Source: Achromobacter sp. MFA1 R4 (lineage in GTDB: Bacteria; Pseudomonadota; Gammaproteobacteria; Burkholderiales; Burkholderiaceae_B). From it: a stretch of DNA of 64,000 nt. Made by a program: the position numbers and the translations under genes. Below the pieces are notes generated by a model. It had not been told where the DNA came from. It made no database searches and saw only the letters and a program-made list of their open reading frames with translations. The stretch covers positions 3,968,001 through 4,032,000 of the forward strand of contig NZ_LT707065.1 of the NCBI RefSeq assembly GCF_900156745.1. Reading direction: 5' to 3'. Positions 40,158-45,828 of the stretch are shown here, one piece after another; the first letter of the stretch is position 1; each line of letters opens with the position of its first letter.

Positions 40158-41465
40158 ATGGACTTGAAGATCTTTGACCGTATGGAGTCTGAAGTGCGGG
40201 GCTACATCCGGTCGTTTCCCGTGATATTCAATCAGGCCCGGGGCTCGACGCTCATCGATGAGGATGGCGCCGAATACATCGACTTCTTCAGCGGCGCAGG
40301 CACGCTGAACTACGGCCACAACAATCCTGTTCTCAAGGAAAAGCTGCTGGAGTATGTGCAGGCGGACGGCGTCGTCCATGGCCTGGACATGGCCACCAGC
40401 GCGAAGAAGCGTTTCCTTGAGACGGTGGATCGCGTGCTGCTCAAGCCGCGCAACTGGCAGTACACGCTGCAATTCACCGGCCCGACCGGCACCAACGCCG
40501 TCGAAGCCGCGCTGAAGATCGCGCGCCAGGTCAAGGGCCGTCCCAATGTGATCTCGTTCACGCATGGTTTTCACGGCGTCACCGGCGGCTCGCTGGCCGC
40601 CACGGCCAACATGAAGTTTCGCGACGCCGCCGGCTACGCGCTGGGCAACACGACGTTCATGCCCTACGACGGATACTTCGGTCCGGACGTGGACACCATG
40701 TCGTACCTGGAACGCATGCTGGAAGATCCGAGCAGCGGCCTGGACAAGCCGGCCGCCGTCATCGTGGAAACGGTGCAGGGCGAAGGCGGCGTCAACGTGG
40801 CCACGCTGCGCTGGTTGAAAGAGCTGGAAAAGCTGTGCAAGCGGCACGACATGCTGCTGATCGTGGACGACATCCAGGTCGGCTGCGGCCGCACCGGCAC
40901 GTTCTTCAGCTTCGAGGCCGCCGGCATCCGTCCCGACATCATCACGCTGTCGAAGTCGCTCTCGGGCTTTGGCCTGCCGATGTCCCTAGTGCTGATGAAG
41001 CCCGAGCTGGACATCTGGAAGCCGGGCGCCCACAGCGGCACGTTCCGCGGCAACAACCTTGCCTTCGTCACCGCGACCCAGGCACTGGAAACCTACTGGA
41101 CCAACACCGCGTTCACCGCCGACATCCAGCGCAAGGAGCGCCTGGTGGGCGACTGGCTCGAAAACCTGGTGCATAGCTATCCCAACGCCGGCCTGTCGGC
41201 GCGCGGCCGCGGCCTGATCCAGGGCCTGGTGTCCAACACCACCCCGGCGCTGTCCAACCGCATCGCCCAATGCGCGTTCAAGAAGGGCGTCGTGATCGAA
41301 ACCTCGGGCGCGCATGACGAAGTGCTCAAGCTGCTGCCCGCGCTGACGATCGAGGAAGACCTGCTGGCCAAGGGCCTGGATCTGATCGAGGCCAGCGTGG
41401 CCGAAGCGCTGGCCGATGAGGGGCAGTCCGCCCGCATCCTGAAATTTGGAGGAAAACGTCAATGA
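40158..41465 (+). CDS. ectB: diaminobutyrate-2-oxoglutarate aminotransferase
   Basis: EctB converts aspartate-4-semialdehyde to L-2,4-diaminobutyrate with glutamate as amino donor. The 435-residue class III aminotransferase has FTGPTGTNAVEAALKIARQ (phosphate binding), DDIQVGCGRTGTFFSFE and the PLP lysine K266 in ITLSKSLSGFGLP. A strong GGGAGGA ribosome site precedes the ATG, so translation is independent of ectA. The ectC start overlaps its stop by 4 nt. Confidence 0.97.
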   Translation: MDLKIFDRMESEVRGYIRSFPVIFNQARGSTLIDEDGAEYIDFFSGAGTLNYGHNNPVLKEKLLEYVQADGVVHGLDMATSAKKRFLETVDRVLLKPRNWQYTLQFTGPTGTNAVEAALKIARQVKGRPNVISFTHGFHGVTGGSLAATANMKFRDAAGYALGNTTFMPYDGYFGPDVDTMSYLERMLEDPSSGLDKPAAVIVETVQGEGGVNVATLRWLKELEKLCKRHDMLLIVDDIQVGCGRTGTFFSFEAAGIRPDIITLSKSLSGFGLPMSLVLMKPELDIWKPGAHSGTFRGNNLAFVTATQALETYWTNTAFTADIQRKERLVGDWLENLVHSYPNAGLSARGRGLIQGLVSNTTPALSNRIAQCAFKKGVVIETSGAHDEVLKLLPALTIEEDLLAKGLDLIEASVAEALADEGQSARILKFGGKRQ

Positions 41466-41860
41466 TCGTACGCAATGTCAAAGATGTGATCGGCACCGCC
41501 GACGAAGTCCGCACCGACACCTGGGTCAGCCGCCGCGTGCTGCTCAAGAAGGATGGCATGGGCTTTTCTTTCCATGAGACCACCATTTTTCCGGGCGGCC
41601 GCACGCACATCCACTACAAGAACCACCTTGAAGCGGTGTGGTGCATCGAGGGCGACGGTTCGATCGAGACCATTGCCGACGGCAAAAAGTATGAACTGGG
41701 CCCCGGCGTGGTCTACGCGCTGAACGAACACGACGAGCACTGGCTGTGCGGCGGCAAGGAGCCGCTGCGCGTCATCTGCGTCTTCAATCCGCCGCTGACC
41801 GGCCAGGAAGTGCACGACGAGCATGGTGTCTACGCGCTACCCGACGCCGTCGCGGCCTGA
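41462..41860 (+). CDS. ectC: L-ectoine synthase
   Basis: EctC is a metal-dependent cupin that cyclises N-gamma-acetyl-diaminobutyrate to ectoine. The 132-residue protein has the metal ligands found in Paenibacillus EctC at the same numbers: E57, Y85 and H93. The cupin segment is PGGRTHIHYKNHLEAVW. It starts inside the ectB stop (ATGA) and is followed 15 nt later by ectD. Confidence 0.97.
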   Translation: MIVRNVKDVIGTADEVRTDTWVSRRVLLKKDGMGFSFHETTIFPGGRTHIHYKNHLEAVWCIEGDGSIETIADGKKYELGPGVVYALNEHDEHWLCGGKEPLRVICVFNPPLTGQEVHDEHGVYALPDAVAA

Positions 41861-41875
41861 AAATAGGAGGTTCGC

Positions 41876-42802
41876 ATGATCTCACCCGCGAAGGATCCGT
41901 ACGCCTCCCGTACGGATCGTGGTTCCGCCATCATTTCCCGCCAGGATCCCGTCGTCTATGAAGACGGCAAGTACGCCAGCGCGCTGTCCGACGAGCAGGT
42001 CGGCCAGTATGACCGCGACGGCTTCCTGCTGCTGGAAAACCTGTTCTCGGAAGCCGAAGTGCGCGCCCTGTCGGGCGAGGTCGAGCGCATGACGCGCGAT
42101 CCGTCGATCGTGCGCCGCGAAGAGGCCATCACCGAGCCGGGCAGCAACGCCGTGCGTTCCATCTTCATGGTGCACGTGCTCAACCCCATGCTGGCCCGCC
42201 TGGTGCGCGATCCGCGCCTGGTCAACGTGGCGCGCCAGATCCTCGGTTCCGAGGTCTACATCCACCAGTCGCGCGCCAACATGAAGCCGGGCTTCAAGGG
42301 CAAGGAGTTCTACTGGCATTCGGACTTCGAGACCTGGCACGTCGAGGACGGCATGCCCTCGATGCGCGCGCTCAGCTGCTCGGTGCTGCTGACCGACAAC
42401 AACGAGTGCAATGGCCCCCTGATGCTGGTGCCGGGCTCGCACCGCCAGTTCATCTCGTGCGTCGGCGAGACGCCGAACGAGCACTACAAGCAATCGCTGA
42501 AGAAGCAGGAATACGGCGTGCCGGATCCTGTCAGCCTGCAACTGCTGGTGGAGCAGGGCGGCATCCGCACGATGACGGCCAAGGCCGGCTCCGTGGTGTT
42601 CTTCGACTGCAACACGATGCATGGTTCGAACAGCAACATTTCGCCGTGGCCGCGCGCCAATGTCTTCATGGTCTACAACAGCATGGAGAACACCCTGAAC
42701 CCGCCCAAGTACGGGCTGACCCCGCGTCCCGAGCACATCGCGACGCGCAAGGGATTCAAGGCGGTCACGCCGCTGGATGCGTTGAAGCTGGTTGGCGGTT
42801 GA
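41876..42802 (+). CDS. ectD: ectoine 5-hydroxylase
   Basis: EctD is an Fe(II)/2-oxoglutarate dioxygenase that hydroxylates ectoine to 5-hydroxyectoine using O2. The 308-residue protein carries the signature WHSDFETWHVEDGMPSMR with iron ligands H148 and D150, and H249 in CNTMHGSNSN. It is the last gene of the operon, 15 nt after ectC with an AGGAGG site, and is followed by a strong terminator. No ask_ect aspartokinase gene is attached. Confidence 0.97.
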   Translation: MISPAKDPYASRTDRGSAIISRQDPVVYEDGKYASALSDEQVGQYDRDGFLLLENLFSEAEVRALSGEVERMTRDPSIVRREEAITEPGSNAVRSIFMVHVLNPMLARLVRDPRLVNVARQILGSEVYIHQSRANMKPGFKGKEFYWHSDFETWHVEDGMPSMRALSCSVLLTDNNECNGPLMLVPGSHRQFISCVGETPNEHYKQSLKKQEYGVPDPVSLQLLVEQGGIRTMTAKAGSVVFFDCNTMHGSNSNISPWPRANVFMVYNSMENTLNPPKYGLTPRPEHIATRKGFKAVTPLDALKLVGG

Positions 42803-42925: not shown

Positions 42926-43798
42926 ATGTCTGCCCGTATCCTCAGCCTGCACATCTATCCCGTCAAATCCTGCGCGGGCATCGACCTGACCGAATCTCCC
43001 ATCGACCGCGCGGGCCTGGCGCATGACCGGCGCTGGATGGTCGTGGATGACGGCGGCCAGTTCATGACGCAGCGGCAATGGCCGGCCATGGCGCTGATCC
43101 GCACGGCGCTCTCGGCGGACGCGCTGCGCCTGTCGGCCCCGGGCATGGCGGACCTGGAGGTCGCCCTGGACGGATCTGGACTGGAAGGCGAGGGGCAAAC
43201 GGTGGGCGTCTGGAGCGACACCATTTCCGCCCGGCGCGAAGGCGCGGCCGCGGAACGGTGGCTGTCCGAATTCGTCAAGACGCCGTGCCGCCTGCTCAAG
43301 GTGGATGCCGCCGCGCGCCGCAACGCCAAGCCCGACTGGGTATCGCGCTGGGCCGACGCGCATCCCGATCTGGCCGATGCCTTCGTGGGGGAACACCACT
43401 TCGGTTTTGCCGACGGCTTTCCGCTCCTGATCGCCAACCAGGCCTCGCTGGACGACCTGAACGCCCGCCTGCAGGCCAAAGGGGCGGCCCCGGTGCCGAT
43501 GGACCGGTTCCGTCCCAACATCGTGGTCCAGGGCGAATGGGAGGCCTTCGACGAAGACCACACGGCCATGATCACGGCGGGCGGCGTACGGATGGCGTTC
43601 GTCAAGCCGTGCACCCGTTGCTCGATTCCCGACATCGACCAGCGCACGGCCCAGCAATATGAAGAGCCGGGCCGCACGCTGGCGGGCTACCGCAATCTGG
43701 ATATTGGCGTCGTATTCGGCCAGAACGCCATCGTGGATGCGCCGGCCGGCGCGCGGCTGAAAGTGGGCGACGCGGTCGACATCGAACTGGATTTCTGA
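42926..43798 (+). CDS. MOSC domain protein (YcbX-like)
   Basis: The 290-residue protein has an N-terminal MOSC_N beta-barrel domain (SLHIYPVKSCAGI near 7-19). The C-terminal MOSC domain (about 140-285) has FPLLIANQASLDDLN and the conserved K-P-C-T-R-C at 227-232; Cys229 is the expected molybdenum-cofactor sulfur ligand. YcbX-type proteins reduce N-hydroxylated compounds, with electrons from a flavoreductase. There is no attached ferredoxin domain here. It is monocistronic after the ectoine terminator. Confidence 0.9.
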   Translation: MSARILSLHIYPVKSCAGIDLTESPIDRAGLAHDRRWMVVDDGGQFMTQRQWPAMALIRTALSADALRLSAPGMADLEVALDGSGLEGEGQTVGVWSDTISARREGAAAERWLSEFVKTPCRLLKVDAAARRNAKPDWVSRWADAHPDLADAFVGEHHFGFADGFPLLIANQASLDDLNARLQAKGAAPVPMDRFRPNIVVQGEWEAFDEDHTAMITAGGVRMAFVKPCTRCSIPDIDQRTAQQYEEPGRTLAGYRNLDIGVVFGQNAIVDAPAGARLKVGDAVDIELDF

Positions 43799-43817
43799 CC
43801 CGCCGCCCGCCGCGGCG

Positions 43818-44135
43818 TCACGGCGAGGACAGCTTCAGGCCAACCAGGCCCAGCACGATGAAGGCAACGCTGGCAATGCGCAGCCAGCTTGCCGACTCAC
43901 CGAAGAGCACGATGCCCGCCACGAAGGCGCCGATCGTGCCGATGCCCACCCACACCGCATAGGCGGTGCCCAGCGGCAGGCTTTTCATGGCCAGGGCCAG
44001 CAGCCAGAAGCTGATGAGCATGCCCGCCACGGTCACGACGGACGGCCACAGCCGGGTGAAGCCGTTGGTGTATTTCAGGCCGACCGCCCAGACGATTTCA
44101 AACAGGCCAGCCAACACCAGGATGATCCAGGTCAT
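43818..44135 (-). CDS. sugE: SMR guanidinium exporter Gdx/SugE
   Basis: The 105-residue protein has four TM helices and belongs to the SugE (Gdx) branch of small multidrug resistance proteins. The essential glutamate is Glu13 in [18 protein letters not shown]. The K-x-x-x-G-x-x-R-x-W/Y pattern after TM1 and the [16 protein letters not shown] segment fit the guanidinium-exporting subtype rather than EmrE. It is controlled by an upstream guanidine-II riboswitch, which supports guanidinium as the substrate. The start is preceded by GGGAG. Confidence 0.93.
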
Positions 44136-44180
44136 GCACGACTCCCAAGATTGCGATGCCGGCGAGATGCCGACATAAAT

Positions 44181-44243
44181 GGGGTCGTCCCCGGAAAAGG
44201 CGCCGGCCGTTTGACCGGGCGCAGCAACGGGCCGTCCCGTTGC
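44181..44243 (-). promoter_or_regulatory. guanidine-II (mini-ykkC) riboswitch
   Basis: On the minus strand the leader contains two hairpins with the diagnostic ACGR loops. P1 is GCAACGGG-ACGG-CCCGTTGC (44243-44224), a perfect 8-bp stem. P2 is GGGG-ACGA-CCCC (44192-44181). The linker is 31 nt, in the range for this class, and the sugE start is 45 nt after P2. Guanidine binding to paired ACGR loops is known to raise expression of guanidinium exporters. Both the structure and the downstream gene support the call. Confidence 0.88.
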
Positions 44244-44250
44244 GGCAAAA

Positions 44251-44256
44251 ATTATA
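44251..44256 (-). promoter_or_regulatory. -10 box for the riboswitch-sugE transcript
   Basis: A consensus TATAAT on the minus strand (complement of ATTATA) lies 8 nt before the first riboswitch stem, so transcription would start at the base of P1. No good -35 hexamer is seen at 16-18 nt. Confidence 0.55.
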
Positions 44257-44343
44257 GAATACCGGCTTTCGACGGCAGATCCGGATGCCGGGCATCAACC
44301 TAGCAACACTTCGCGTTCCGGGCCGCGAAACCAGGATATTTTT

Positions 44344-44712
44344 ATGCAACGCATCATGCTGCGGGCAAAGCTGCACCGCGTCACGGTCACGGAAGCCGAC
44401 CTTCACTACGAAGGATCTTGCGGCATCGACGAAGACCTCCTCGACGCTGCCGGCATGCGCGAGTTCGAACGCATCGAGCTCTACAACGTGACGAATGGCG
44501 AACGCTTCGACACTTACATCATCAAGGCTGCGCGCGGCAGCGGCGCCATCTCGCTGAACGGCGCGGCGGCGCGCCGGGCCCAGGTGGGCGATCTGCTGAT
44601 CATCTGCACGTACGGCCCGATGTCCGAAGAAGATTCGGCCACGCACAAGCCCCAGGTGGTGCTGGTCGACGACGCCAACCGCGTCAAGGAAATCCGCAAG
44701 TTCCCGGCGTGA
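44344..44712 (+). CDS. panD: aspartate 1-decarboxylase (pyruvoyl-dependent) proenzyme
   Basis: PanD makes beta-alanine from aspartate for pantothenate and CoA. The 122-residue proenzyme self-cleaves between Gly24 and Ser25 (YEG-SCGID); Ser25 becomes the pyruvoyl group. [21 protein letters not shown] is the family core around the substrate arginine region. panB and panC are not adjacent. It is divergent from sugE, and its leader overlaps the start region of the riboswitch transcript. Confidence 0.97.
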
Positions 44713-44781
44713 CGCCGGGCCGGGCGAAGCGCCATGCCGGCTCGGCCGGATAGCGCTTCGTCGCCTCTGAACCGTTTCATC

Positions 44782-45828
44782 ATGAGCTTCCAGGTCATCA
44801 TCCAACCCAGCAAGCATCAATTCCCGGTCGAGCCCGGCCAGACCGTGCTCGACGCCGCGCTGGCGGCGGGCATCGTCCTGCCCTATAGCTGTCGCAATGG
44901 CGCATGCTCCACCTGCAAGGGCAAAGTGGTGTCCGGGGAGTTCGACGCCGGCCAGTACCCCGCGCAGATCCTGTCGCCGGAAGAACTGGCCGACGGCTTC
45001 ACCCTGTTCTGCCAGGCCCGGCCCCAGTCCGACCTGGTGGTCGAGTCCACCGAGGTCCGGCTGGCGAGCGACATCCAGATCCGCAAGCTGCCGTCGCGCG
45101 TCCAGACCATGGAGCGCGTCGCGCCGGATGTCACGGTGCTCAAGCTGCAACTGCCGGCCTCCGAGCAGTTCCGCTACTACGCGGGGCAGTACGTCGAAAT
45201 CATCCTGAAGGACGGCCGCCGCCGCAGCTACTCGATGGCGGGCGCTCCGCACACCGGCAGCCCGCTTGAACTGCACATTCGCCACATGCCCGGGGGCCTG
45301 TTTACCGACCACGTGTTCGGCGCCGGCGACACGCAGATGAAGGAACGCGAGATCCTGCGCCTGGAAGGGCCGTTCGGATCGTTCTTCCTGCGCGAAGACA
45401 GCGACAAGCCCATCGTCCTCTTGGCCAGCGGGACGGGCTTCGCGCCGGTCAAGGCCATCGTGGAACACATGATCCACAAGAACATCAGCCGCCCCGTCGC
45501 GCTGTACTGGGGCGGGCGCCGTCCGCAAGACCTCTACATGGACGCGCTGGCGCAGTCCTGGTCGGCCCAGCTTCCGGACTTCCGCTACGTGCCCGTGGTG
45601 TCCAACGCGCTGCAGGAAGACAACTGGACTGGCCGCACCGGCTTCGTCCACGAAGCCGTCATGCAAGACATCGCCGACCTGTCCGGCCACCAGGTCTATG
45701 CCTGCGGCACGCCCTTGATGGTCGATGCGGCGCGCCGCGAGTTCAGCGCGCAGAACGGCCTGCCGCCGGAAGAGTTCTACGCGGACGCCTTCACGTCCGA
45801 GGCCGATCTGGCGAAGGCCGGGTCGTAA
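44782..45828 (+). CDS. 2Fe-2S ferredoxin-FAD/NAD(P)H reductase (CDP-6-deoxy-delta-3,4-glucoseen reductase-like)
   Basis: From ATG 44782 the protein is 348 residues. The N-terminal plant-type ferredoxin domain (1-90) has cluster cysteines C37, C42, C45 and C77. An FAD domain follows with RRRSYSMAGAP (FAD-binding RxYS), then a NAD domain with LLASGTGFAPVKAIVEHM and a final CGTPLMVDAAR. Betaproteobacterial homologues are often named AscD after the deoxysugar enzyme, yet no CDP-sugar genes are here. It more likely supplies electrons to an unidentified oxygenase or reductase. It follows panD by 69 nt. Confidence 0.88.
   Translation: MSFQVIIQPSKHQFPVEPGQTVLDAALAAGIVLPYSCRNGACSTCKGKVVSGEFDAGQYPAQILSPEELADGFTLFCQARPQSDLVVESTEVRLASDIQIRKLPSRVQTMERVAPDVTVLKLQLPASEQFRYYAGQYVEIILKDGRRRSYSMAGAPHTGSPLELHIRHMPGGLFTDHVFGAGDTQMKEREILRLEGPFGSFFLREDSDKPIVLLASGTGFAPVKAIVEHMIHKNISRPVALYWGGRRPQDLYMDALAQSWSAQLPDFRYVPVVSNALQEDNWTGRTGFVHEAVMQDIADLSGHQVYACGTPLMVDAARREFSAQNGLPPEEFYADAFTSEADLAKAGS

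Follow-up and report, generated by a model that had tools for sequence, protein, structure and literature searches.

The closest described system is the guanidine-II (mini-ykkC) riboswitch of the E. coli sugE/gdx leader, in which two GC-rich hairpins with ACGR loops, arranged as P1-linker-P2, stand before the gdx ribosome site and for which a translational ON switch has been proposed. According to the passages of PMC9300104 on this RNA, its linker is 13 nt long, natural members mostly keep ACGA in P1 and rarely have a G in both loops; the linker passage of PMC7544219 gives a range of 7-40 nt for the class, and the passages of PMC9300104 and PMC9094411 on the E. coli mechanism place the anti-Shine-Dalgarno (anti-SD) sequence in the linker. 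The gdx leader described here, from Achromobacter sp. MFA1 R4, shares the E. coli layout and differs in its loop letters (P1 ACGG and P2 ACGA, where E. coli has P1 ACGA and P2 ACGG), in a linker of 31 nt that is mostly hairpin, in a ribosome-site complement that lies in the P2 loop and 3' arm, and in a score below the Rfam cut-off. A nearer relative is the gdx leader of Bordetella genomosp. 12 (L073), whose Gdx is 79% identical and which likewise has a GGGG/CCCC stem in P2, with UCC as the last linker letters ahead of GGGG; unlike the Achromobacter leader, it has an 8-nt linker without a hairpin, ACGA in P1 and ACGG in P2, and it scores 38.6 bits.

The initial annotation had proposed a guanidine-II riboswitch before a Gdx-type exporter, and this is still the best reading, with a hairpin pair conserved across the genus and its sister genera. 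The element is very probably a divergent guanidine-II riboswitch that switches on the translation of Gdx, the guanidinium exporter. The class is known; the divergent parts are the linker-hairpin layout and the swapped loop letters. A literature search returned nothing on guanidine-II or guanidine riboswitches in Achromobacter.

Layout of the gdx leader and its class

The features of the leader and its neighbours in the window (the whole 64-kb stretch of DNA that was analysed) are the following:

44256-44251, minus strand: -10 box TATAAT, as read in the sequence
44243-44224, minus strand: P1 hairpin, GCAACGGG-ACGG-CCCGTTGC, 8 bp, loop at 44235-44232
44223-44193, minus strand: linker from P1 to P2, 31 nt
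44222-44200, minus strand: linker hairpin beginning 1 nt past P1, made of GCGCC, a bulged C, GGUC, the loop AAAC, GGCC and GGCGC
44199-44193, minus strand: 7-nt single-stranded tether CUUUUCC, joining the linker hairpin to P2
44192-44181, minus strand: P2 hairpin, GGGG-ACGA-CCCC, 4 bp, loop at 44188-44185; loop and 3' arm are the proposed anti-SD
44176-44156, minus strand: P3 hairpin between P2 and the ribosome site, up to 8 bp
44148-44138, minus strand: ribosome site UUGGGAGUCGU, whose SD GGGAG (44146-44142) is extended by a conserved GUCG and which is complementary to ACGACCCC in P2
44135-43818, minus strand: gdx/sugE, 105 aa, SMR family, with its ATG at 44135, 45 nt beyond the end of P2
44344-44712, plus strand: panD, aspartate 1-decarboxylase (TIGR00223, 172.2 bits), a divergent neighbour outside the switch

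The initial annotation had described an 8-bp P1 with ACGG and a 4-bp P2 with ACGA, 31 nt apart, with a TATAAT upstream and the sugE start 45 nt downstream, and its coordinates and counts are right. The distance from TATAAT to P1 is constant across all 30 distinct leaders of the genus, and a scan of 43700-44400 for consensus promoters gives nothing that reaches threshold; transcription would start at about the first base of P1 (44243). A terminator-based mechanism was dropped because no terminator-like site occurs in 43700-44400. Both strands of the window together hold five ACGR hairpins with GG/CC-closed stems of at least 4 bp (three on the plus and two on the minus strand), and the only two of them that sit within 100 nt of each other are those of the gdx leader. 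At lower window positions, ectB, ectC and ectD, for ectoine and hydroxyectoine, occupy 40158-42802 on the plus strand and are followed by a MOSC-domain gene at 42926-43798.

The downstream gene encodes a protein that scores 149.6 bits against NCBIfam NF008512 (cut-off 126) and matches Pfam PF00893 (SMR); its closest PDB match is 6wk5 (56% identity over 104 aa), titled 'SMR family', which we take to be Gdx-Clo. In the PDB match list 6wk8 is grouped under the same sequence as 6wk5, and 6WK8 is Gdx-Clo in PMC9000954, whose passage on Gdx-Clo and the subtype lists E13, S42, Y59, W62 and W16 for the site, plus K101 on helix 4. Glu13 of SugE, pointed out in the initial annotation as a mark of the Gdx subtype, is present along with W16, S42, Y59, W62 and K101; the window Gdx, known from sequence, is identical to 6wk5 at all of these positions, with no difference there, and its product is presumed to be a guanidinium/H+ exporter.

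The leader shows most of the traits by which guanidine-II is recognized. It has two GC-rich hairpins with ACGR tetraloops and the kissing C and G in both loops, loop positions 2-3 (CG) being invariant in 25 of 25 rows of the genus alignment; its 31-nt linker falls within 7-40 nt, a range that five genus relatives (74 nt) exceed; and it lies near the ribosome site of a guanidine exporter, 45 nt before gdx. Its P1 loop is ACGG instead of ACGA, the latter being usual in the class and not defining, with ACGR as the consensus.

Under lax filters guanidine-II (RF01068) is the top Rfam match in 43600-44800, with 27.3 bits (cut-off 32) and E 0.0037, in an alignment that spans the full model, inserts 16 nt in the linker and sets ACGG against the consensus ACGA. 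At the gathering score there are zero Rfam matches across the 64-kb window, and in a whole-genome search with fast filters the gdx leader comes first of 13 weak matches, at 19 bits and E 0.46, so that Rfam alone is not decisive. No guanidine-I was detected elsewhere in the host genome at E 0.001. The initial annotation had proposed to give up the assignment should the covariance score fall below threshold, which at 27.3 bits it literally does. The score is nevertheless a poor refuter, given the 16-nt linker insertion, ACGG in place of ACGA and the conservation in the genus and sister genera, and we rejected it as disproof; by its conservation the element is real. The gathering cut-off marks the curators' detection limit and is no structural feature, and none of the 20 genus gdx loci tested (20 of 30 fetched) passes it. 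We file the element as a guanidine-II variant and not as a canonical member because its score lies under this cut-off.

Conservation of the hairpins, the linker and the loop letters

A close gdx orthologue (86-100% identity) occurs in 32 of the 43 genus genomes, and all 32 have the P1 and P2 pair before gdx; since this pair is also the sole one of its kind in the window, we regard it as more than a product of chance. The genus alignment holds 25 distinct leaders, those with 74-nt linkers being left out of a total of 30. In these 25 the P1 helix is 98.5% paired and the P2 stem is unchanged throughout. Our own covariance model, R1, was made from 24 distinct P1-linker-P2 sequences, all among the 32 genomes, and matches its training sequences by construction; the training set did not include G026, G036 or the five 74-nt leaders. 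Each of the 32 genomes is matched with an E of at most 8.1e-6, a level that none of the 11 other genus genomes reaches; two of these, without a close gdx orthologue (G019 and G029), give E 0.02-0.03. In genus g8, which lies outside the training, five of nine genomes match directly before gdx (E 1.3e-7 to 1.1e-4).

At E 0.05 R1 matches 51 of 268 family genomes, the 32 genus genomes included. Further matches stand before gdx in G082, G093, G096, G097, G098, G101, G207, G209 and G211, the match in G029 is at a ChaA-like gene, G157 is also among the 51, and eight of the 51 (G019, G090, G106, G113, G114, G192, G256 and G266) have no adjoining gdx. One of the latter, G113, reaches E 6.8e-6, a value on a par with the 74-nt leaders; an R1 E of about 1e-5 therefore proves little alone, and it is the position before gdx that counts. 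An order-wide search of 399 drawn genomes yields three weak matches outside the genus (E about 0.001), none with gdx: the one in G315 is a standard ACGA/ACGG pair that precedes another gene and has a 14-nt linker, and the other two have no ACGR pair.

The most distinctive feature of the leader, absent from the initial annotation, is the hairpin inside the linker. Across the 25 distinct genus leaders 94.5% of its cells are paired, and 11 cells are changed on both sides (shuffled mean 2.7, with 0 of 500 shuffles as high); three pairs show a two-sided change, a number reached in 39 of 500 shuffles, and sliding the pairing partners abolishes the signal. Five genus leaders (L049, L050, L051, L053 and L060) have linkers of 74 nt, beyond the published 7-40 nt, with a UGCG/CGCA closure directly after P1, 7 free nt at the end and no P3.

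For the family, the sample consists of the 92 genomes, among 268 searched, whose gdx match has an E of at most 1e-33. Our hairpin finder reports an ACGR pair in 80 of these 92 gdx leaders and none in G071, G080, G086, G104, G105, G123, G184, G192, G193, G195, G203 and G212. The linkers of the 80 measure 8-23 nt in 20 and 25-76 nt in 60. In 57 of the 60 long linkers a single domain starts at most 5 nt past P1 and leaves 6-13 nt before P2, as it does in 17.5% of mononucleotide shuffles (100 per linker), and these counts are not independent events, the sequences being related and 32 of the 60 coming from one genus. The tether measures 7-11 nt in 51 of the 57; the long linkers without the one-domain layout are those of G079, G109 and G226. 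Each of the 10 family genera with long linkers has at least one leader of this layout, and the sequences of the linker hairpins are unrelated from genus to genus. Genus g7, which includes Bordetella genomosp. 12, combines hairpinless linkers of 8-14 nt with linkers of 39-51 nt, and its G087 leader is identical to that of L073. The gdx leaders L226 (G104) and L205 (G105) of genus g9 keep TATAATTTTTGCCG with no ACGR pair, and the riboswitch has possibly been lost there.

An outside comparison used the best 80 of a larger number of gdx loci, taken by similarity to the query with one genome per species. An ACGR pair is present in 33 of these best 80, seven of them in the host family (L069-L073, L110 and L126); L069-L072 are Achromobacter loci, with leaders identical to those of four loci of the genus, and the linker is 52 nt in L110 (Candidimonas) and 44 nt in L126 (Pusillimonas). 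Among the 73 best-listed loci titled outside the family, where L113, titled only Burkholderiales bacterium, is counted, 26 have a pair, with linkers of 9-21 nt. With such short linkers elsewhere, the long hairpin linker looks like a family trait on this sample of the best 80 loci. The linker passages of PMC5486947, PMC9300104, PMC7544219 and PMC9094411 describe no structured linker of this kind.

The loop letters set the lineage apart as well. P1 carries ACGG in 32 of 32 genus leaders, and P2 carries ACGA in 24 and ACGG in 8, hence ACGG in both loops in 8 of 32; both loops are ACGG in eight of nine g8 genomes. This lineage is an exception to the pattern of a mostly ACGA P1 and rare GG. The fourth letters of P1 and P2 read AA in 14, AG in 11 and GG in one (L076) of the 26 pairs outside the family from the best 80 gdx loci, and all four combinations AA, AG, GA and GG occur among the family gdx leaders. 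The window leader is GA (P1 ACGG, P2 ACGA), a combination that in the E. coli construct has a KD of 165 uM, next to 59 for AA, 133 for AG and 264 for GG (binding passages of PMC9300104). Among family gdx leaders ACGG in P1 goes with 44 of the 60 long linkers and 0 of the 20 short ones; we do not claim this link as a rule because GG pairs with short linkers occur before ChaA-like genes (L250, L251 and L260) and before gdx in an alphaproteobacterial MAG (L076).

The proposed switch at the ribosome site

Our model predicts a translational ON switch in which the P2 loop and 3' arm hide the ribosome site GGGAGUCGU unless guanidine keeps P2 closed. In the ligand-free RNA ACGACCCC of P2 would pair with GGGAGUCGU, so that the ribosome site is hidden; with guanidinium bound, P1 and P2 would kiss via their ACGR loops, and P2, held closed, would leave the ribosome site free. 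The linker hairpin would reduce the long linker to a tether about as long as those found elsewhere, and P3 would do likewise between P2 and the ribosome site. In the predicted ensemble of the window leader from P1 on, P2 is formed at 0.003 and the SD is paired at 0.75, nearly all by the P2 arm; in genus g8 the predicted SD pairing by the P2 arm is 0.84, via another match. The lowest-energy folds from TATAAT on vary among orthologues, with P2 kept in 7 of the 30 distinct leaders.

Across the 25 alignment rows P2 ACGRCCCC complements the ribosome site in 88.8% of cells, and the A, G, C and G of AGUCG in the ribosome site are invariant. Covariation between the P2 arm and the SD amounts to a single two-sided cell, in L056 only, which 145 of 500 shuffles reach; this pairing is thus backed by conservation and not by covariation, which is nearly absent because P2 is invariant. 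When the P2 arm was compared with shuffled ribosome sites, an anti-SD role was supported in most genus leaders with ACGA in P2 (p 0.004 to 0.16) and also in L017 (0.004); those genus leaders whose P2 loop is ACGG (p 0.07 to 0.65) gave it no support, and neither did the majority of other leaders. A class-wide anti-SD role of the P2 arm was rejected on this failure in most other leaders, and we claim the role for the genus and g8 only, the latter through its own sequence (GCCCC with GGGGC in four of nine, GCCCCAU with AUGGGGC in two of nine). In the literature, a passage of Huang et al. (PMC5486947) mentions that in Gloeobacter a stem may form that overlaps both P2 and the ribosome site. A passage of PMC13064478 reports high gdx expression in E. 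coli ZX-1, which has a 20-bp deletion over P2 (RNA-seq, n=1, the cause being presumed by its authors), as is expected if P2 carries the repressing arm.

The initial annotation had suggested that a third weak stem (GTCGGC/GCCGGC) may be the switching element. This stem, P3, does exist at 44176-44156; 85.9% of its cells are paired, and its inner 6 bp are intact in 23 of 23 rows that have it. It is missing in two of the 25 alignment rows and in the five leaders with 74-nt linkers, and in these seven of the 32 genus genomes (L047, L062 and the five) only 17-21 nt separate the end of P2 from the start codon. A switching role for P3 was rejected on this absence, and it is more likely that P2 itself, with a loop and 3' arm complementary to the ribosome site, is the switch. 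P3, missing when the gap is short, is probably a replaceable spacer and seems to occupy the loop that the repressing hairpin encloses.

Should the published E. coli model (mechanism passages of PMC9300104 and PMC9094411) apply here, the element would still be guanidine-II, with the anti-SD in the linker tail and the P2-arm complement incidental. The tail is at least an equal complement to the ribosome site in many leaders, such as CUUUU with GGGAG in the window; over the 60 long-linker leaders the longest complement is longer in the arm in 23 and in the free tail in 25, with predicted pairing of 0.57 by the arm vs 0.10; in several long-linker leaders of other genera the stretch read holds no SD, the true start being probably upstream of the matched one. 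Most of the genus linker, however, is locked in its own hairpin, the genus mean of predicted SD pairing is 0.10 by the linker vs 0.55 by the P2 arm, and the P2 loop and arm match the AG-CG behind the SD core, which is invariant in all 25 rows, all of which makes a linker-tail anti-SD unlikely. We consider it improbable that the riboswitch is worn or weak, its affinity cut by the swapped loops (ACGG in P1) and gdx mostly constitutive or off. ACGG is indeed weaker in the E. coli constructs and an isolated ACGG P2 showed no binding, but all four loop combinations bind guanidine in the linked construct (binding passages of PMC9300104); and although the g9 leaders of G104 and G105 keep TATAATTTTTGCCG without an ACGR pair, P1 and P2 persist in 32 of 32 genus genomes, and their loops and inner stems hardly vary even as the linker drifts in sequence.

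That the linker hairpin is a third guanidine-binding hairpin and not a spacer seems very improbable. Its loop in L056 is ACGG, which gives three ACGR hairpins in a row, a shifted-register ACGG hairpin can be drawn in L048, L057, L058 and L070, and a vertebrate cluster of guanidine-II hairpins with three guanidine-responsive loops is described in a passage of PMC12335538; against this, the hairpin is capped by AAAC in the window and by that or some other non-ACGR sequence in most of the 25 rows, and a third ACGR hairpin was rejected as a general feature, being found in the main register only in L056. We give hardly any credence to a ligand-independent device, either an RNA thermometer or a simple brake on translation, made by pairing of the P2 arm with the ribosome site: heat could shift the window leader, whose optimal predicted fold lies only 3.9 kcal/mol from the best one that contains P2, but neither would need two ACGR hairpins and a downstream guanidinium exporter, and the pair recurs in 26 of the 73 gdx loci titled outside the family among the best 80. 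The guanidine-responsive ON switch with its repressing arm in P2 is the reading we prefer.

Guanidine-II before ChaA-like genes and the family gdx leaders

In the Rfam survey of the family, guanidine-II is above the cut-off in 55 of 268 genomes; those of the genus (G006, G014, G027 and G029-G032) all have it at a ChaA-like gene and not at gdx. Eight of the 11 genus genomes without a close gdx carry guanidine-II (above the cut-off in seven, below it in G008) before the gene of a ChaA-like member of the CaCA family, about 380-420 aa long, and the other three (G019, G024 and G033) have neither guanidine-II nor a ChaA-like gene. The copy at L014:296-1477 (minus strand) matches TIGR00846 at 2.7e-56 and PRK10599 at 1e-59, both under the curated cut-offs, and Pfam PF01699 at 77 bits. 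Relatives at 63% identity or more occur in 20 family genomes, from g1 (8), g3 (8), g7, g26, g27 and g34, and 20 of 20 have an Rfam guanidine-II match upstream, below the cut-off in G008, G176 and one of two G208 copies. Of the 20 loci (L241-L260), 18 show an ACGR pair by the hairpin finder, as do none of 10 more distant ChaA homologues (L261-L270). Separately, G027:C32:44014-44213 holds three weak guanidine-II matches of 21 bits each at 81-nt spacing, probably a tandem repeat.

A riboswitch-gdx unit and the ChaA-like gene occur together in none of the 20 genomes (chance 6e-4 in the family and 1e-6 in the genus, kinship ignored); G080 has gdx as well, without the riboswitch there. That the two are never found in the same genome suggests that one exporter was replaced by another; against replacement, the genus genomes with ChaA-like genes keep more distant SMR homologues (34-57% identical). 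Judging from sequence, the ChaA-like antiporter is possibly a replacement exporter for guanidinium, and ChaA-like genes could be a further kind of guanidinium exporter. A literature search for guanidine riboswitches or ykkC with ChaA or an antiporter, which covered the earlier papers on the class in part, returned only chaA as a strain marker.

The form of the riboswitch described here is missed at the Rfam threshold in 20 of 20 tested genus leaders, so a regulated exporter can go unannotated for its switch. The gdx leaders of the family, which differ in their linker hairpin and show all four loop combinations, form a natural series in which tuning by the fourth loop letter, and the linker as spacer or as anti-SD, are directly testable. 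It is conceivable, if on balance doubtful, that the family guanidine-II is a structural subclass of gdx leaders, with a variable helix beside P1, the repressing arm moved into the loop and 3' arm of P2 and, in part of the family, the loop letters swapped (ACGG first). If so, its members would be expected to differ from the E. coli type in guanidine affinity or cooperativity, or to prefer another guanidino compound.
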